Part shown: piece by piece, positions 25,550-33,974 of the stretch
Layout: the number at the start of each line of letters is the position of its first letter
Numbering within the stretch: the stretch's first letter is position 1
DNA from: Bacilli bacterium
Lineage (GTDB): Bacteria > Bacillota_I > Bacilli_A > RFN20 > DUOF01
Assembly (NCBI GenBank): GCA_017517765.1
Contig: JAFWYE010000006.1
Span: forward strand, 372,001 to 436,000
Direction of reading: 5' to 3'
DNA: 64,000 nt
The notes under the pieces: generated by a model
Database searches by the model: none
Told to the model about the DNA's origin: nothing
Seen by the model: only the letters and a program-made list of their open reading frames with translations
Program-made: the position numbers and the translations under genes

Positions 25550-25588
25550 TAAAAACAATGGATTATCTTAAATCATCCATTGTTTTTT
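25550..25588. terminator. Bidirectional terminator between polC and rpe
   Basis: An inverted repeat (AAACAATGGAT ... ATCCATTGTTT) with A-run on the left and T-run on the right. It serves polC on the plus strand and rpe on the minus strand; the rpe stop lies in the loop. Confidence 0.8.
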
Positions 25589-26201
25589 CTTTTAAACTAT
25601 TGGCTAAATATGTACCTACAATAATTACATCTGCTCCTGCTTCTTTTACAAGCTTTGCAGTTTCATTATTTATTCCACCATCTACAGATATAAGGTAATG
25701 GTATTTATCTTGTCTTTCTCTTAAATATTTGATTTTATCTATACTAGAATCAATAAATTTTTGTCCACCCTTACCAGGCTCGACACTCATAATTAATATA
25801 TTATCTAGGTAAGGTAAAAACTCTTCTAAAACTTCTACATTAGTATTCGGTTTTATACTAATACCTACTTTCATATCATAAGTTCTTACTTCGTTTACTA
25901 AAAGCATTATTTCTTCTTTTTTTACAGCCTCATAATGAAATGTAATGCTCTTTGCTCCAGCCTCAGCATAGTGCTTAATATCATCAATTGGATTCTCACA
26001 CATTAAATGAACATCAGCATATAATTTGTTATACGTATTTATTTCTTTTACTAATTCATAATTAAACGTAGTACTAGAAACAAACTTACCATCCATAACA
26101 TCAAAATGAAGCCAATCTTTAGTTGTTAAGGAATTGTAATGTTCAATAGCAGCTTTATAACCACTATTAATTAAGTTTAAAAAAGAAAATGCAATTATCA
26201 T
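25563..26201 (-). CDS. rpe: Ribulose-phosphate 3-epimerase
   Basis: Interconverts ribulose 5-phosphate and xylulose 5-phosphate. The 212-residue TIM barrel shows 'WLHFDVMDGKFVSSTTFN' (metal-binding His and Asp), 'YADVHLMCENP', 'ILIMSVEPGKGGQKF' and 'LISVDGGINNETAKLVKEAGADVIIVGTYL', all at the family positions. The ATG overlaps the rsgA stop as ATGA. Linkage prpC-prkC-rsgA-rpe is a standard Bacillota order. It is the last gene of a long minus-strand run. Confidence 0.95.
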   Translation of the reverse strand: MIIAFSFLNLINSGYKAAIEHYNSLTTKDWLHFDVMDGKFVSSTTFNYELVKEINTYNKLYADVHLMCENPIDDIKHYAEAGAKSITFHYEAVKKEEIMLLVNEVRTYDMKVGISIKPNTNVEVLEEFLPYLDNILIMSVEPGKGGQKFIDSSIDKIKYLRERQDKYHYLISVDGGINNETAKLVKEAGADVIIVGTYLANSLKEKTMDDLR

Positions 26202-27061
26202 ATCTTTTTACCTCCTGAGATATCTTTTAATAGTCTCAAATAATTTTCATAAGACTCCCTTAGTATTATACCATCATCTACATCATTTTTAATCTTACAA
26301 CCTATTTCTTTATCATGTTTACATCCTCTAAACTTACACTCCCCAAAATTTTTAAATCCTGGATATATACAAGATAATCTAGCTGAATCTATATCTAATT
26401 TAAGGGAAGAGAACCCAGGAGTATCTGCAACTAGCCCACCACAAATTTCCATAAACTCCACTTCTCTAGTAGTATGTTTTCCTCTACCTAAACTATAAGA
26501 AATATCACTAGTTTTTAAATTAAGGGAAGAGTCTAGAGAATTAAGTAAAGTTGATTTCCCTGCTCCACTTTGTCCAGTTAAAATAGTCTTCTTTCCTTTA
26601 AAAATTTCTTCAAGCACTTTTTTATTTTCTAATGCCAAACTATTTCCATAATAACATTCAATTCCAATTGAACGATAATACTCAATGTATTTCATATAAT
26701 CATTAATATTAACTTTATCCACTTTAGAAAAATAAATTAAAGGAGTAATCTCATTATCTAAAACCTGTAATAATAATTTATCTAATAGATATGAGGAAAA
26801 GTCAGGATCCTTTAATGAAGTAACAATTAAAGCCTGATCTATATTACTTACTGCAGGTCTAACTAAAGAATTTTTTCTTTTTTCAACTTGCTTAATATAC
26901 CCTTTATCATTTTCTAACTCTTCATAGATAACTCTATCTCCAGGAACAGGTATAACTTTATAGTCTCTCAATTTTCCAGATGCATGACAAACTATTATTT
27001 TATTATTATCCTTTACATAAAAGTTTCCACCATTTACTTTTATTAAATCTCCACTAGGCAT
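26198..27061 (-). CDS. rsgA: Ribosome small-subunit GTPase RsgA
   Basis: A circularly permuted GTPase that checks maturation of the 30S subunit. In 287 residues: an OB domain ('GGNFYVKDNNKIIVCHASGKLR'), the permuted G motifs 'YFSKVDK' (G4), 'LTGQSGAGKSTLLNSL' (P-loop), 'GRGKHTTREVEF' (G2) and 'ADTPGFSSL' (G3), then the zinc site 'CIYPGFKNFGECKFRGCKHDKEIGC' cut by Cys and His ligands. I chose the ATG at 27061 behind GGGGT; it overlaps prkC by 8 bases. The longer reading from 27097 would add a tail not found in the family. Confidence 0.95.
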   Translation of the reverse strand: MPSGDLIKVNGGNFYVKDNNKIIVCHASGKLRDYKVIPVPGDRVIYEELENDKGYIKQVEKRKNSLVRPAVSNIDQALIVTSLKDPDFSSYLLDKLLLQVLDNEITPLIYFSKVDKVNINDYMKYIEYYRSIGIECYYGNSLALENKKVLEEIFKGKKTILTGQSGAGKSTLLNSLDSSLNLKTSDISYSLGRGKHTTREVEFMEICGGLVADTPGFSSLKLDIDSARLSCIYPGFKNFGECKFRGCKHDKEIGCKIKNDVDDGIILRESYENYLRLLKDISGGKKI

Positions 27062-27926
27062 CTTTTTTACCCCACTTAAATAGTCTAGAAAATACACTCT
27101 CTTTTTCTAGCGCTTCATTATTTAAATCTTTTCTTAAATCTCCCATAGTAAGATATCTACTTCTAGGCTCTTTATTACATGCTTTAGTGATAATCCTATC
27201 AATTCTTTTATCAACATCATTACTATATTTTTTAACACTAGGAAATTGTTCGCTAATATGCTTCATTGCAATATTAACAGCACTATTATCAGTAAATGGT
27301 AATTTACCAGTTAATAACTCAAAGAAAGTAACTCCAAGTGAATAAATATCACTTTGAACTGTAGCACTTTTACCCTCAGCAATTTCTGGAGCCATATAGT
27401 GAACACTACCTATAACAATATCTTTTTGTGTTAGGTGTGGAGCATCATTAACAAGAGCAATTCCAAAATCACCAAGCTTGATACTACCATCATTTTTAAT
27501 CATCACATTTTGTGGCTTTATGTCACGATGAATAATTCCATGTTCATGGGCATGGGATAATGCATCAGATAGTTGATCTATAATATCAATAGCTTCACTT
27601 TGTCTAAAACATCCTCTAGTTTTCAATACATCCTTTAGACTTTTACCATTGACGTATTCCATTACCATATATGGCTTACCATGATACTCATCAACATCAT
27701 ATATTTCAATAATATTTTTATGCCTTAAAGCCGCACTAGCCCTAGCTTCTCTTTGAAACCTAGCAATATTAAGTGGATCCATTGATGTAGAATCTTTAAT
27801 GATTTTAATTGCAACTTCTCTTTTGGCAATAACATCATTAGCAACATAAACTTGAGCCATTCCACCCTCACCCAAGAAAGAAATAATATAATATCTATTC
27901 TTTAAAGACTTACCAATCAAATTCAT
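27054..27926 (-). CDS. prkC: PrkC-type Ser/Thr protein kinase lacking TM and PASTA domains
   Basis: A Hanks-type kinase of only 290 residues. The catalytic features are intact: glycine loop 'LGEGGMAQVYVA' (18-29), Lys41 in 'VAIKIIKD', 'HRDIKPQNVMI' (133-143), 'DFGIA' (153-157) and 'GSVHYMAPE'. The protein stops at 'SVFSRLFKWGKKDA', about where other PrkC proteins begin their juxtamembrane region. The usual membrane helix and the PASTA repeats that sense peptidoglycan fragments are absent. The stop is a real TAG inside the next gene's ribosome-binding region, with no sign of a frameshift. Its ATG overlaps the prpC stop. It is probably soluble and opposed by PrpC. Confidence 0.93.
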   Translation of the reverse strand: MNLIGKSLKNRYYIISFLGEGGMAQVYVANDVIAKREVAIKIIKDSTSMDPLNIARFQREARASAALRHKNIIEIYDVDEYHGKPYMVMEYVNGKSLKDVLKTRGCFRQSEAIDIIDQLSDALSHAHEHGIIHRDIKPQNVMIKNDGSIKLGDFGIALVNDAPHLTQKDIVIGSVHYMAPEIAEGKSATVQSDIYSLGVTFFELLTGKLPFTDNSAVNIAMKHISEQFPSVKKYSNDVDKRIDRIITKACNKEPRSRYLTMGDLRKDLNNEALEKESVFSRLFKWGKKDA

Positions 27927-28651
27927 CTAATATCCTCCACTAAGATAACACTAATGTTATCCCTTCCGCCATTGATATTAGCTAAATCAATAAGTTCTAA
28001 AGCCTTATTGCTAGGTGAATCACCATTATTTAATATTTTACAAATAGTTTTATCATCCACCATATTATATAAACCATCACTACAAAGTAAATAGTTATAT
28101 TCTCCCTCAATTTCCTTTACTTGAATGTCAAGTTCACTAGGATCGCTAGAACCCACAGCACAAAGAAGCATATTCTTTTTAGGATGTATTTCTGCTTCTT
28201 TTTCATTTATATATCCTGCTTTTAATAAAGCATTAGTAAATGTTTGATCATAACTAAATTGAGTGAATTCTTTGTGGTTGTAGCCATATATTCTACTATC
28301 ACCAACACTTGCATATAAAGAGAAATTTTCAGCAATCATCAAACCAACAAAAGTAGTACCCATACCTTCATATGAAAGATCTTTATTAGCCATTTCATTT
28401 ATTTTATCATTAGCCTTTAATATTACTTCATATATCCAGTTTTTAGCGTCTTCTAAAGTAGTGAATTTACTCTTTCTAAATTCACCTCTTACATATTTAA
28501 CACATTCACTAGAAGCAATAGCGCCACCTTTATATCCTCCCATACCATCACAAAGAAGATATAATCTAACACCATCTAACCTAGTTTCAACAGCAATACT
28601 ATCTTGATTTTCTTCTCGATTACCTTTATCAGTCTTTAATGCATCACTCAC
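27923..28651 (-). CDS. prpC: PP2C-type protein phosphatase
   Basis: Dephosphorylates proteins phosphorylated by PrkC. The 242 residues have the PP2C metal-binding motifs 'RLYLLCDGMGGYKGGAIAS' (about residues 29-47), 'LYASVGDSRIYGY' (about 112), 'YLLCSDGLYNMV' (about 187) and 'GGRDNISVILV' near the end. The start is GTG at 28651 (GTG-AGT-GAT), overlapping the rlmN stop by eight bases; translation is likely coupled. It is followed by prkC through an ATGA overlap. Confidence 0.94.
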   Translation of the reverse strand: MSDALKTDKGNREENQDSIAVETRLDGVRLYLLCDGMGGYKGGAIASSECVKYVRGEFRKSKFTTLEDAKNWIYEVILKANDKINEMANKDLSYEGMGTTFVGLMIAENFSLYASVGDSRIYGYNHKEFTQFSYDQTFTNALLKAGYINEKEAEIHPKKNMLLCAVGSSDPSELDIQVKEIEGEYNYLLCSDGLYNMVDDKTICKILNNGDSPSNKALELIDLANINGGRDNISVILVEDIR

Positions 28652-29702
28652 TAATTACACCTTCTTTTTTTGCTCTAAGTTGGCCACACGCTGCATCTAT
28701 ATCAGTACCAAACTCTTTACGAATAGTAACATTAACACCTTTACTCTTTAATCTTTCATAAAAAGCTCTTACTTCTTTCTTTTCACTACGCCTAAATTCA
28801 TTTTCTTTAACCTCATTATAAGGAATTAAATTAACATAGGCAAAAGTTCCTTTTAATAATTCTACAAGTTCATCAGCATTAGTTAAGGAATCATTAATTC
28901 CTTTAAGTAAGATATATTCAATAGTAACTCTTCTATCAGCATTTTTAGAATACTCTCTAATAGCCTCAAATAACTTATTTAATGGATATGCTTTGTTAAT
29001 TGGCATAATCTTATTTCTAGTTTCATCATTTGATGCATGAAGTGAAATCGCAAGATTTACTTGCAATCCTTCCTTTGAATAATCAACAATTTTATTTGCA
29101 AGACCTGAAGTAGAAACAGTAATATGTCTAGCACCAATAGCAAGACCTTTTTGATCATTACAAATTCTAATAAATCTCATTACATTTTCATAGTTATCAA
29201 AAGGTTCTCCACTTCCCATTATAACTATATGACTAACTCTTTCTCCTTTTCCCTCTTTATCTAGATACTCTTGCATTTTCATTACTTGAGAAACCATTTC
29301 ATATGCCTTAAGATCTCTTTGTTTTTTTAGTAATCCCGAAGCACAAAACTTACATCCCATATTGCAGCCAACTTGACTAGAAACACAAATAGCATTTCCA
29401 TAGTCATATCTCATAAGTACAGTTTCTACACTTTGTTTATCTTCAAGCTCTAGTAACATTTTTACTGTACCATCATAACTAACTTGTTCTCTTATAATTT
29501 CTGGTAATGAAAGAGTATATTTTTCTTTTAATACTTCTCTAAAAGAAACAGAAACATCACTCATGTCATCAATACTATTAACTCTTTTTTGATAAACCCA
29601 CGAGAAAACTTGGTTACCCCTAAAACTCTTTTGATTTAAAGAAACCATCTCATCCTGTAACTCTTTTAAAGTAAAATCATATAAACTCTTCATTTCTACC
29701 AT
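28644..29702 (-). CDS. rlmN: Dual-specificity 23S rRNA/tRNA A2 methyltransferase RlmN
   Basis: A radical-SAM enzyme that makes 2-methyladenosine at A2503 of 23S rRNA and A37 of some tRNAs. The 352 residues include the cluster motif 'CNMGCKFCASG' (CxxxCxxC, about residues 114-124), 'GSGEPFDNYENVMRFI', 'LAISLHASNDETRNKIMP' and 'VTIRKEFGTDIDAACGQLR', whose Cys is the methyl-carrying residue. It starts 3 bases after the upstream gene and precedes prpC, as in Bacillus. Confidence 0.96.
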   Translation of the reverse strand: MVEMKSLYDFTLKELQDEMVSLNQKSFRGNQVFSWVYQKRVNSIDDMSDVSVSFREVLKEKYTLSLPEIIREQVSYDGTVKMLLELEDKQSVETVLMRYDYGNAICVSSQVGCNMGCKFCASGLLKKQRDLKAYEMVSQVMKMQEYLDKEGKGERVSHIVIMGSGEPFDNYENVMRFIRICNDQKGLAIGARHITVSTSGLANKIVDYSKEGLQVNLAISLHASNDETRNKIMPINKAYPLNKLFEAIREYSKNADRRVTIEYILLKGINDSLTNADELVELLKGTFAYVNLIPYNEVKENEFRRSEKKEVRAFYERLKSKGVNVTIRKEFGTDIDAACGQLRAKKEGVISE

Positions 29703-29705
29703 CCT

Positions 29706-31139
29706 TTATTTTTTCTTTTGTATTTTCTTTAGTTTTTCTATTTCTTCTAAAGTATATTTTTTAACATCCTTTTTATCACAATTCATAATTCTAGAAACAC
29801 CTTTAGCAATGTTATCAAAAGGTAATAGTCTATTAGCTTGAGCCAAATTCATGGTAGTACTTAAATGTACTTTGCTAAGCTCTTTTTTATAGCGTTTAAA
29901 AACAAACTCCATATACTCTAATGTGTGATCATAAACATTTAAAGCATCTGAATTGGAACAAGGGGAAATAATATTTCCACTCTTCTCTACCACTTTACCC
30001 ATAACTTTTTTAGAAAGTGCATTTACATATGCCTCTTCTAAATCTAAATAAGCTTTACTATCATTAAAATATAAACCACGCTTGTTATTAGTTTCATTTA
30101 TTCCACCCAAATAATGTATAAGCTCATGAATACACGTATCATTGAATTCAGTTGTATAAAGCATTTCATTATTTGCAAATACTACATAACTTTCTAGTCC
30201 TCTTTTACCCTCAATTTGGAAGTTAACACCATAAACAGAGGGATTATTAAACATATATGCTACATTTGTAAAATCAGGAGTATATCCTTTAGATTCTAAT
30301 TCATCATAGATATCAAAAACATTTGTATATGCTCTTAAATCGCTCTTACATTCTTTAACAAATCTAGTGCAAAACTCATGTTCTAAATCCAAAGCAATTT
30401 GCTTATTCATAACAATACCATTCTTTTTAGCAGATTCTTCTAGTTGTTGTAAAGTTCCTCCCCTACATCCAATGGCACTATAAAATTTCTTTCTTAAATC
30501 ATAAATGTGATTCTTATATTCTTCACTGCAATTTTTTAAATCTTCATTGTTAAGAGTAAAAGCACTCAACGTATCCCATAGCCATCCAACATTATAAGTA
30601 TCCCTAACATGTACATTAAACTTATCTCTTAAAATGTCAGCCTTTATTTCATACATTTTAGAAACAACTTTTTCTCTATGAGTTTCTCCCCTTTGAAGAT
30701 TATCAATTATATCCTTTACTTCATAATCTCTTAAAAAATTCTTAATCGCAGATTTAATATTGTTATATGCTGCATTTTTAGTATTCTTAAACTCATCTTG
30801 TTTAGAAACAAAGTCTTCAATGATGGGTTTAAGAGCAACATCATCTAGATGATAGCTTGAAAGAATAAGTTTGGTTAAATCATTTGCTAGTTCTTTCTCT
30901 CTTTCTTCATCTAATAATAAATTTTCATAAACATCACTAGCATAATCACCAGCAATCTTAGCCAAATCCACATTTGTTAATCTTTGTGATTGATTATAGT
31001 AATCTTCATAAACATAAAAATTCAAAGCTTTTAATCTATTTGAAATTAGCGTTTCATCTACATTAAGAAAAGATGCTATAGAATCACCTATAATTCCTAA
31101 CTTATCTCTTATTTGACCCACAACTACTTTAGCATCCAT
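29706..31139 (-). CDS. Uncharacterised 477-residue protein with HELIH zinc-protease motif
   Basis: I do not recognise this family. The first 250 residues are helical and charged. The region about 315-375 looks like a minimal metallopeptidase: 'YVVFANNEMLYTTEFNDTCIHELIHYLGG' carries HExxH, and 'AYLDLEEAYVNALSKKVMG' some 27 residues later could provide a glutamate ligand as in gluzincins. The C-terminus ends in 'EEIEKLKKIQKKK'. There is no signal peptide or membrane helix, so it would act in the cytoplasm. It follows the Cys/His-rich gene by 16 bases, in probable co-transcription, and precedes rlmN by three. The function is unknown; an inactive fold with a chance HExxH is possible. Confidence 0.7.
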   Translation of the reverse strand: MDAKVVVGQIRDKLGIIGDSIASFLNVDETLISNRLKALNFYVYEDYYNQSQRLTNVDLAKIAGDYASDVYENLLLDEEREKELANDLTKLILSSYHLDDVALKPIIEDFVSKQDEFKNTKNAAYNNIKSAIKNFLRDYEVKDIIDNLQRGETHREKVVSKMYEIKADILRDKFNVHVRDTYNVGWLWDTLSAFTLNNEDLKNCSEEYKNHIYDLRKKFYSAIGCRGGTLQQLEESAKKNGIVMNKQIALDLEHEFCTRFVKECKSDLRAYTNVFDIYDELESKGYTPDFTNVAYMFNNPSVYGVNFQIEGKRGLESYVVFANNEMLYTTEFNDTCIHELIHYLGGINETNNKRGLYFNDSKAYLDLEEAYVNALSKKVMGKVVEKSGNIISPCSNSDALNVYDHTLEYMEFVFKRYKKELSKVHLSTTMNLAQANRLLPFDNIAKGVSRIMNCDKKDVKKYTLEEIEKLKKIQKKK

Positions 31140-31155
31140 CTTAATTCACTCCTAA

Positions 31156-31746
31156 CTACTTTGTTTTCTTTTTACTGCTTGTCTTCTTTTTACTATTTGT
31201 TTTCTTTTTATCTTTGCAAGTGCAATCATCTCCACATTCGCAACTATCTCCACAAGTGCACTCTTCTCCTTCTTTACATCCACACGTATGAGCATGTTCT
31301 TTACAAGTACAGCCTTCATCATGACAATGACAATCATCGCCCTCGCAGTCACAACCATCATCATGACAATGACAAGCACCATCTTCACAATCACAACCAT
31401 CATCGTGACAATGGCAAGGCTTACCTTCTACTTTGTAAGCATATATTAAACTTGTATCAATAATTTCATATCTAATATAAAACTCACTTACAAATCCACT
31501 TAAATATTTAGCCAAAATATCAGATATTTCATCCATGTGAGAAACATACTCATTACTAATTGTAACGGTAGCTTCAACTCTTGTATTGAAATCAACATCA
31601 CCAAAAGCAAAATAATCTACTACCGGTGCCTCATATATTATTTCTTTTTCATCAATTTCTAATAATGGAGCTATTTCTTTACTTGAATAGTAAGAAATAT
31701 ATCCAGCTATATCACTTCTATTAGCATTTATACTTATTTTAATCAT
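31156..31746 (-). CDS. DUF1904-like protein with metallothionein-like Cys/His tail
   Basis: A 196-residue protein in three parts. Residues 1-108 contain no Cys and look like a tautomerase-type DUF1904 fold ('EIIYEAPVVDYFAFG', 'VEATVTISNEYV', 'FYIRYEIIDTSLIYAYKVEGK'); this match is from memory and moderate. Residues 111-177 hold 20 Cys and 8 His, every Cys in a CxC pair. They begin with three 14-residue repeats of the form 'CHCHDDGCDC' plus four acidic or polar residues, then 'HTCGC', 'CTCGDSCECGDDCTC'. Residues 178-196 are nearly all Lys, Ser and Thr. The tail can be expected to bind Zn, Cu or similar ions. The gene has its own promoter. Its role could be metal storage or sensing. Confidence 0.75.
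   Translation of the reverse strand: MIKISINANRSDIAGYISYYSSKEIAPLLEIDEKEIIYEAPVVDYFAFGDVDFNTRVEATVTISNEYVSHMDEISDILAKYLSGFVSEFYIRYEIIDTSLIYAYKVEGKPCHCHDDGCDCEDGACHCHDDGCDCEGDDCHCHDEGCTCKEHAHTCGCKEGEECTCGDSCECGDDCTCKDKKKTNSKKKTSSKKKTK
31291..31416 (-). repeat. Three tandem 42-bp coding repeats
   Basis: Three in-frame copies of a 42-bp unit encode the 14-residue Cys/His repeats at residues 111-152 of the metal-binding protein. The copies differ at third positions and in the last four codons, so they are not fresh duplications. Confidence 0.8.
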
Positions 31747-31772: not shown

Positions 31773-31802
31773 AGTATAACACACTTTATATTTAATTAAC
31801 AA
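31773..31802 (-). promoter_or_regulatory. Promoter of the Cys/His-rich gene
   Basis: TTGTTA, 18-base spacer, TATACT on the minus strand, beginning one base after the priA stop codon. It would give the metal-binding gene and its HExxH neighbour transcription independent of priA. Confidence 0.55.
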
Positions 31803-33974
31803 TTAAATATCGTTGCTTGGATTAACTATTATTGTAATTTTAACTCTATTATTTTTTAAATTTTTCTCCTTAAATTCTTTAAATATCTTAATGCTTCTTT
31901 TAATGTCTCTAAACTTAACCATAAGTTTCAGTCTATGCACCCCATTAATCTTAGATATATATGGAGAACTAGGTCCTAAAGTTGTAAAATTAACTTCATT
32001 TAAATTTTCAAGATACAACTTACTTTCCTTAGCAAATTTATATAATTCACTATAATCTTTTCCCGACAATAAAATGTAAGCAATATTTCTAAATGGAGGA
32101 TATTCCATCCTTTTTCTATAAGCTAATTCTTTATTACAAAATAGATCATAGTTATATTCACAAACCTCTTTTAAAACATCATTATCCTTGTTATGTGTTT
32201 GAATCAAAGCAAGCCCCTCTTTTTCACTTCTTCCTGCTCTACCCAGTACTTGAACAAGTAATTGATAAGCTCTCTCTTTTGCTCTATAATCACTAGCATT
32301 TAAACTAGAATCAATATTTAATACCGCAACTAAAGTAACATTTGGAAAATCTAATCCCTTAGCAACCATTTGAGTCCCTACTACAATATCAACTTCATTA
32401 TTTCTAATCATTTCAACATATTTTAAATGACTATCTTTTCCTTTTGTAGTATCTAAATCCATCCTAAGGACTCTTGCTTCTTTATATAGTTCCTTTACTA
32501 ACTCTTCTATCCTTTGACTACCTACACCAGTCTTATCAAAAAATCCACTTCCGCATTCTGGACACTTATCTAAAACTCTCTCGCTTCCACAATAATGGCA
32601 TTTTAATTTATTATCTATCTTATGGTAATTTTCACTAACATCACAATTACTACACTTGAATATGTATCCACACTTTTTACATCTAACATATGGAGAATAT
32701 CCTCTTCGATTAATTAAAATAATAACTTGTTCTTTTTTATTTAACCTATCTTGTATCAACAATTTTAACTCATTTGAAAATAATTCATCTTCTTCCTTAT
32801 TCATATCAACAATTTTCACTTCAGGAAGTTTCTTATTATTAACTCTAGTTCTTAAATATATTTGGTTATATTCTCCCTTCATTGCTCTAATTTTAGATTC
32901 AAGTGAAGGAGTAGCACTACCAAGTAAAACTTTAGCATTATTATAATTAGCTCTATATAAAGCAATATCTAAGGTATCATAACATGGTGTAGACTCTTGT
33001 TTATATGACTCACTATGCTCTTCATCAATAATAATTAATCCAAGTTTTGATAAAGGTGCAAAAATAGCACTTCTTGTACCTATTACAACCTTCACATCGC
33101 CATTTTTTATTCTCCTGTATTCATCATACTTTTCTCCCTCAGATAAAGAAGAATGAAGAAGAGCCAATTCATCTTTAAAATAGCCTTTAAATCTTGCTGC
33201 AATTTGGCTTGTTAAAATAATTTCGGGGACAAGTAAAATAACACTTTCTCCCTTATTATAGAAATGCTTAGCTAAAGTAAAATAAACTTCACTTTTCCCG
33301 CTTCCTGTAACACCCTCTAAAAGGCTACATCTTTTATCTGTATTAATAACACTATCAAAAGCTTTTTGTTGATCATCATTTAATACTAAATCCTTGGAAT
33401 ACTCTTTATTATCACTAATTGATACTCTTCTAAATTGCTCTATATCGACTTTTTTTATACACCCTTTTGCCACTAATGCATTAGCAATTCCAGCATTTAC
33501 ATCTTTAGCTAAAACCTCTTTTTTTTCTTTAATAAAGCCTAACAATTCTCTTTGTTTAACAGTCAAATTTTCCCCATCATTTAAATACCTATATCCAAGC
33601 AAATATTTTATCTTACTACCCTTTACCGTTTTAGGCTTTAAAGTTTTAGGCAACATAACTTGTAAACAAGCAATAAGAGGAGAAACATATTTATAGGACA
33701 TGTATGAAGCAACATCTAATAATTCTTCATTAATAAGTGCTTCATTATCAATAACTTTATTTATAAAATTAAGTTTAAATCCATATTCCTCCTCTAATTC
33801 TTCTTTTGACAAATCACTAAAAGAGGTATCTAGGACATAACCTATTACCTCTCTATGATTAAAAATTACACTAACTCTTTTTCCTATTATATTCTCGTCA
33901 CCCAAATATAAATAATCAAAAGTTTTATCTAATCTATCATCACTATATTCAATTACAACACTAGCTATTTGCAT
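31803..33974 (-). CDS. priA: Primosomal protein N' (replication restart helicase PriA)
   Basis: A superfamily-2 helicase that reloads replication forks. In 723 residues: the 3'-DNA binding domain (1-105), a winged-helix region, Walker A 'LLEGVTGSGKSEVYF', DEEH box 'LIIIDEEHSESYKQES', the zinc cluster 'CKKCGYIFKCSNCDVSENYHK' and 'CHYCGSERVLDKCPECGSG' (eight Cys), and helicase motifs 'IVVGTQMVAKGLDFPNV' and 'QVLGRAGR'. The length is a little below the 800 of Bacillus, mainly in the C-terminus. Its ATG overlaps the upstream kinase-like gene by 14 bases. Confidence 0.96.
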   Translation of the reverse strand: MQIASVVIEYSDDRLDKTFDYLYLGDENIIGKRVSVIFNHREVIGYVLDTSFSDLSKEELEEEYGFKLNFINKVIDNEALINEELLDVASYMSYKYVSPLIACLQVMLPKTLKPKTVKGSKIKYLLGYRYLNDGENLTVKQRELLGFIKEKKEVLAKDVNAGIANALVAKGCIKKVDIEQFRRVSISDNKEYSKDLVLNDDQQKAFDSVINTDKRCSLLEGVTGSGKSEVYFTLAKHFYNKGESVILLVPEIILTSQIAARFKGYFKDELALLHSSLSEGEKYDEYRRIKNGDVKVVIGTRSAIFAPLSKLGLIIIDEEHSESYKQESTPCYDTLDIALYRANYNNAKVLLGSATPSLESKIRAMKGEYNQIYLRTRVNNKKLPEVKIVDMNKEEDELFSNELKLLIQDRLNKKEQVIILINRRGYSPYVRCKKCGYIFKCSNCDVSENYHKIDNKLKCHYCGSERVLDKCPECGSGFFDKTGVGSQRIEELVKELYKEARVLRMDLDTTKGKDSHLKYVEMIRNNEVDIVVGTQMVAKGLDFPNVTLVAVLNIDSSLNASDYRAKERAYQLLVQVLGRAGRSEKEGLALIQTHNKDNDVLKEVCEYNYDLFCNKELAYRKRMEYPPFRNIAYILLSGKDYSELYKFAKESKLYLENLNEVNFTTLGPSSPYISKINGVHRLKLMVKFRDIKRSIKIFKEFKEKNLKNNRVKITIIVNPSNDI

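Follow-up and report, generated by a model that had tools for sequence, protein, structure and literature searches.

The window considered here, a stretch of 64,000 nucleotides from a Bacilli bacterium, encodes a small protein whose N-terminal part is free of cysteine and whose C-terminal part is dense with it. The locus raises the question of how such a tail came to stand on such a domain, whether by a one-off joining of two parts or otherwise, and of what the tail might do. An earlier note, made from the DNA letters, had described it as a metallothionein-like tail added to a DUF1904-like protein.

The gene and its Cys/His-rich tail

Translation of the open frame bore out what the earlier note had stated: residues 111-177 contain 8 His together with 20 Cys that all belong to CxC pairs. 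The Cys stand at positions 111, 113, 118, 120, 125, 127, 132, 134, 139, 141, 146, 148, 155, 157, 163, 165, 169, 171, 175 and 177, and one more His lies at residue 70. The N-terminal part without Cys proved longer than the 108 residues given there (residues 1-110), and the three 14-residue repeats that the note had described are all real, although the third ends in CTC and not in CDC. Across the open frames of the window with 60 codons or more, no other 67-residue stretch has more than 10 Cys, and the one that reaches this number lies in a protein whose CxxC motifs resemble those of ferredoxins. Complete pairing of the 20 Cys never arose in 500 shuffles at fixed composition, for which the mean was 7.7. 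Binding of several metal ions by the tail is the most likely reading of these residues. Searches of Pfam and NCBIfam with the whole protein gave no match, including none to a metallothionein family. The PDB sequence matches of the whole protein to neuraminidases, with E-values from 0.0007 to 0.013, are confined to the Cys-rich tail and were dismissed as an artefact of its composition.

The gene contains tandem repeats of 42 bp and 21 bp. Between the repeats of the window gene, the codon differences in Cys/His columns were all synonymous (3/3), while the other columns held 3 synonymous differences and 8 amino-acid changes. The tail of a relative (L005) contains three near-identical 39-codon repeats. 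Across the repeats of both species, the Cys/His columns showed 6 synonymous and 0 amino-acid changes, against 5 synonymous and 11 amino-acid changes elsewhere (Fisher p = 0.012); a random change in a Cys or His codon would be synonymous about one time in five or six. With few changes counted and a recent duplication, these data provide modest evidence that the ligand residues are kept by selection.

The tailed gene is present as one copy in its genome. Within that genome a query with the tail matched only its own gene, arguing against a mobile module spread through the host, and matches to a multi-CxC pattern elsewhere appeared chance-like when judged by eye. Horizontal gain from a plasmid or phage was likewise set aside, no match being obtained. 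The contamination of the assembly (6.87%) is unlikely to matter, because the gene sits in the conserved gene order of its order on an 862-kb contig.

Table 1 Features of the tailed gene and its surroundings, in positions of the window.
Feature	Positions	Strand	Remarks
196-aa protein with a DUF1904-like tautomerase-fold domain and a Cys/His-rich tail	31156-31746	-	
Residues 1-109, predicted tautomerase-fold domain without Cys and without Pro-1	31420-31746	-	AlphaFold2, Foldseek, hhalign
Residues 111-177, putative metal-binding tail with 20 Cys as 10 CxC pairs and 8 His	31216-31416	-	
Three 14-residue repeats, CHCHD[DE]GC[DT]C	31291-31416	-	
Lysine-rich end, KKKTNSKKKTSSKKKTK	31159-31209	-	From an 18-bp tandem repeat
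AT-rich perfect inverted repeat between the gene and priA	31788-31810		10-bp arms, 3-bp spacer
Weak promoter-like site TTGTTA-18-TATACT, TG ahead of the second hexamer	31773-31802	-	9/12 bases match
priA (primosomal helicase), conserved upstream neighbour	31803-33974	-	
477-aa protein with HELIH (HExxH) motif	29706-31139	-	
rlmN, within the conserved downstream run	28644-29702	-	
prpC (PP2C phosphatase), prkC-like kinase, rsgA and rpe, conserved downstream run	25563-28651	-	

The N-terminal domain and its orthologues

The AlphaFold2 single-sequence model of the N-terminal domain (pLDDT 77.8, pTM 0.73; residues 46-54 poorly predicted) follows the order strand-helix-strand-strand-helix-strand-strand, with strands at residues 2-8, 36-39, 56-63, 88-95 and 101-106 and helices at 11-29 and 65-82. 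In this model a single chain would thus hold the two beta-alpha-beta units expected of the tautomerase superfamily. A Foldseek comparison with the PDB assigned the model to the MIF/tautomerase fold (probability 1.00, TM-scores mostly 0.5-0.68), with MIF proteins as the top matches and the DUF1904 structure 1u9d at rank 36. Against the Pfam DUF1904 profile (PF08921) the window copy gave no match at the gathering cut-off of 24.1 bits, whereas at least six orthologues passed it (G077 27.4, G039 27.1, G033 26.7, G067 25.2, G018 24.9 and G006 24.2 bits), with matches spanning the full or nearly full domain, and for some relatives DUF1904 was the only full-length Pfam match. Alignment of the family profile with a canonical DUF1904 profile by hhalign also succeeded (96.2%, E 2.1e-9, 103 columns); the profile of the order family gave a weak sequence match to the structures 1u9d and 4m1a. 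The DUF1904-like or tautomerase-like domain that had been proposed from the letters is therefore supported by predicted fold, by the profile-profile match and by orthologues above the Pfam cut-off, and sequence and model together indicate that it is a divergent DUF1904 homologue of the MIF/tautomerase fold.

Pro-1 is the catalytic residue of the tautomerase superfamily, and a survey found 346 of its more than 11,000 members to be without it (PMC5818174). Eight aligned canonical DUF1904 proteins have an invariant Met-Pro start and an invariant W-x-x-R (W60, R63). By contrast, none of 95 aligned rows of the order family has Pro at residue 2 (Ile 73, Val 20, His 1, Leu 1), and W-x-x-R is not conserved among them. 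Since the order family lacks the catalytic residue of its superfamily, tautomerase chemistry via Pro-1 is not expected. Canonical DUF1904 proteins, with the Met-Pro start and no tail, were also seen in family f11 of the class (L174, L175, L180-L193), in genomes of 0.8-1.4 Mb that apparently read TGA as a sense codon.

Of the 279 genomes of the order, 255 have an orthologue, with few exceptions in single copy. When an even sample of the whole class was searched, 54 of 55 matches lay inside the order, and the sole match outside it was internal, covering about 60 residues of a 1360-residue open frame. As judged from these searches, the protein is an order-specific core protein, and the rest of the class hardly has it. 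An isolated fusion of two parts is not borne out by this distribution.

Tail variation and gene neighbourhood across the order

To what extent the tail is shared was seen by comparing C-termini over the order. No Cys is present in the tail of 56 of the 94 members examined, and 45 of the 94 reach either three Cys or four His there, or more. The usual C-terminus is strongly acidic and without Cys (Asp + Glu make up 36% over all tails), and near its end a [YFWM]xG[ND] motif is conserved, present in 85 of 95 rows (shuffled-tail mean 3.7), which was seen in the C-terminal regions of orthologues L006-L029 and L071-L140 and is possibly a docking site. In the window's own family (f1), all four genera have a Cys-rich tail, with 6, 13, 20 and 41 Cys, and the motif is absent from all four members. 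Outside this family, Cys numbers reach up to 19 in L115, 15 in L075 and 11 in L112 and L113, nine further members have 6 to 9, and the tails of L024, L105 and L106 are rich in His and poor in Cys. Tail length varies greatly between genera, and in many of them the Cys/His-rich ends stand beyond or within the motif. In most Cys-rich tails the CxC spacing exceeds that of shuffles, and in seven of them none of 500 shuffles matched the observed value.

On a tree built from the domain only, the distribution of Cys-rich tails cannot be explained with fewer than 10 state changes when the threshold is set at 5 Cys, or with fewer than 13 when it is set at 3. This tree has 114 columns and many open forks, and a count of changes on it cannot tell gain from loss. 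The scatter of Cys-rich tails over this tree implies that they were repeatedly gained or lost. Homologues that lack a Cys tail and keep a stable copy number, which the earlier note had named as counting against its reading, are thus largely what was found. Because the core protein occurs nearly throughout the order and more than half of the tails examined are free of Cys, the tail is an appendage, able to evolve, on a core protein that already existed, and the locus is more fittingly taken as one member of an order-wide series than as a new fusion.

The position of the gene is similarly shared. Among 16 relatives whose neighbourhoods were compared, the gene lies directly 3' of priA in 15, with a guanylate-kinase-like gene usually 5' of priA; in the remaining one (L057) it directly follows the guanylate-kinase-like gene, with no priA between. 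Downstream, the usual order is a cluster c7 gene (416-519 aa), rlmN, prpC, prkC, rsgA and rpe, of which the window's own rlmN, prpC, prkC, rsgA and rpe were checked by Pfam, c7 being without a profile identity. In the window the c7 gene is absent and the HExxH protein stands in its place. That the tailed gene precedes a HExxH protein, as the earlier note had pointed out, is correct as to location (16 bp 3'), but this neighbour is not a conserved partner; it is an orphan in the order, with no relative in the other 278 genomes searched. The neighbourhood of the tailed gene yielded no gene for a metal transporter, sensor or nickel enzyme. In one relative (G002), the next gene downstream of the orthologue (L053:6298-7098, +) encodes an unrelated His-rich protein of 266 aa with CNCPHHHHHPHHH.

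Upstream, the inverted repeat of Table 1 overlaps the priA stop and was not seen 5' of the other three family-f1 orthologues. The proposal that the gene has its own promoter fared poorly, the candidate site being weak and its region containing 9 promoter-like sites against 5.3 expected, which is not clearly above shuffles.

Readings of the tail and comparison with known systems

Taken together, these comparisons make it probable, in our judgement, that the window gene encodes an order-specific core protein with a metal-buffering or metal-delivery tail that works in the manner of the SlyD and HspA tails. The scaffold would be the single-copy DUF1904-like domain of the tautomerase superfamily, its catalytic proline lost, and in family f1 a stretch rich in Cys and His, probably disordered and able to bind several soft metal ions, would have taken the place of its acidic C-terminal tail. 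From the mixed Cys/His make-up Zn(II) is the most likely metal, with Cu(I), Cd(II) or Ni(II) possible. Judged only by the number of ligands, the 20 Cys and 8 His would suffice for about seven tetrahedral sites, and if the scaffold trimerises like MIF, an assembly would carry about 60 Cys. Metal might then be buffered, stored or handed over while tethered to a partner of the core domain. As Cys is missing from the tail in over half of the members examined, the core function of the protein must be something other than metal binding.

Three other readings of the same residues were weighed. The Cys pairs might act as a thiol redox element, forming disulfides or taking up oxidants and so serving the protein as a shield or a switch, in which case metal binding would be a side effect. 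We consider this unlikely: a tail of 20 Cys with many acidic spacers would suit such a role, and the Cys of the SlyD tail can give disulfide-linked multimers in vitro (PMC7840056), but metal ligands agree better with the spacing of the Cys as CxC, with the His set between them and with the His-rich, Cys-poor tails of other members. It is similarly improbable that the tail is a low-complexity stretch, grown by tandem duplication and with little or no selected function. The tandem repeats in the window gene and in L005, and the great differences in tail length among genera, are consistent with this, and tandem-repeat growth could indeed lengthen such tails without selection, a point against the metal-tail reading, as is the small number of changes on which the ligand-codon test is built. 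Conversely, all six differences in ligand codons between repeats are synonymous, CxC spacing is above shuffles, the Cys-rich tail is kept in all four genera of family f1, and Cys-rich ends recur on separate branches.

Metal might instead serve as a signal, altering the oligomer state or the partner binding of the core domain and so acting on a product of the priA-rlmN-prpC-prkC-rsgA run. The place of the gene is conserved, and the tail replaces a C-terminus that bears [YFWM]xG[ND] in most other members; since this motif is conserved, the C-terminus probably had a function before the change. However, most members lack the metal ligands and a conserved gene order is no proof of physical interaction, which leaves such a switch doubtful. 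We give as little weight to the idea that the core protein, with its fixed place between priA and a run of translation and phosphorylation genes, is a docking platform with a C-terminus repeatedly rebuilt to store metal. It would then be a metallochaperone, or a regulator responding to metal status, dedicated to the adjoining metal-dependent PriA, RlmN, PrpC, RsgA and Rpe.

Tails of a related make-up were also seen on other proteins. A histidyl-tRNA synthetase of the same order (G073, L069:3681-5066, +) has a C-terminal tail rich in Cys, His and acidic residues (HHHHHDHDEGCDCEDGSCTCEGEECECNEDGCQCKEHK), and a GrpE of an uncultured bacterium (contig CASXBC010000018.1, L030:3935-4639, +), encoded in the order hrcA-grpE-dnaK, has a long N-terminal CxC/His-rich stretch. 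The habit of adding tails is therefore not confined to the DUF1904-like protein. The tail profile (A2) missed L003 and L115, and is thus insensitive for surveying other tailed proteins. Few cases of metal-binding tails on housekeeping proteins are known (SlyD, HspA, GroEL1). Here, one orthologous single-copy protein provides a natural series from 0 to 41 Cys within one order, which opens the origin of a metal-binding tail to direct test and offers a first handle on an order-wide protein of unknown function.

The metal-tail reading places the protein in a known kind, a metal-binding tail on a housekeeping protein, but on a scaffold for which we found no description; DUF1904 itself had a single mention within the literature searched. 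The family is like DUF1904 (PF08921; 1u9d, 4m1a) in its full-length profile match and in its predicted fold, which is that of 1u9d. The canonical members examined are about 100-110 aa long, with the Met-Pro start, W60 and R63, whereas the order family has no Pro after Met and a long C-terminal tail. GrpE (L030) and histidyl-tRNA synthetase (L069) resemble it in bearing a CxC/His/acid stretch at the end of a housekeeping protein; they are different proteins, and the likeness is presumably convergent. With the metallothioneins SmtA, PflQ2MT and TvMT the window protein shares a CxC-rich stretch with His ligands, and its 20 Cys in 67 residues amount to the high Cys content in CxC motifs that marks such proteins; purified SmtA and TvMT bind four Zn (PMC10612145). 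Metallothioneins are small free proteins, however, whereas the Cys stretch of the window protein is a tail on another domain, so that it is no small free-standing protein of a described family.

Closer parallels are found among tailed housekeeping proteins. A mycobacterial GroEL1 has a His-rich tail that binds copper, as a model peptide (PMC10170517), and the Cys/His/acid-rich tails of SlyD and of the GroES protein HspA of H. pylori bind nickel and store or deliver it (PMC7840056). Like the tail described here, that of H. pylori HspA is a lineage-specific Cys/His-rich extension on a core protein, missing in relatives elsewhere (PMC7840056), although HspA has another fold and its role is nickel sequestration tied to nickel enzymes. 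SlyD likewise consists of a housekeeping fold with a C-terminal Cys/His/acid tail of species-variable length: SlyD tails range from 2 to 50 residues, varying between species, and that of E. coli, with 13 His, 6 Cys and carboxylates, binds up to 7 Ni per molecule (PMC7840056). SlyD is an FKBP-type prolyl isomerase, whereas the window protein has a tautomerase/DUF1904 domain, no FKBP-type prolyl isomerase domain and a tail in which Cys outnumber His; its mode of action may resemble that of SlyD, but it is no SlyD.
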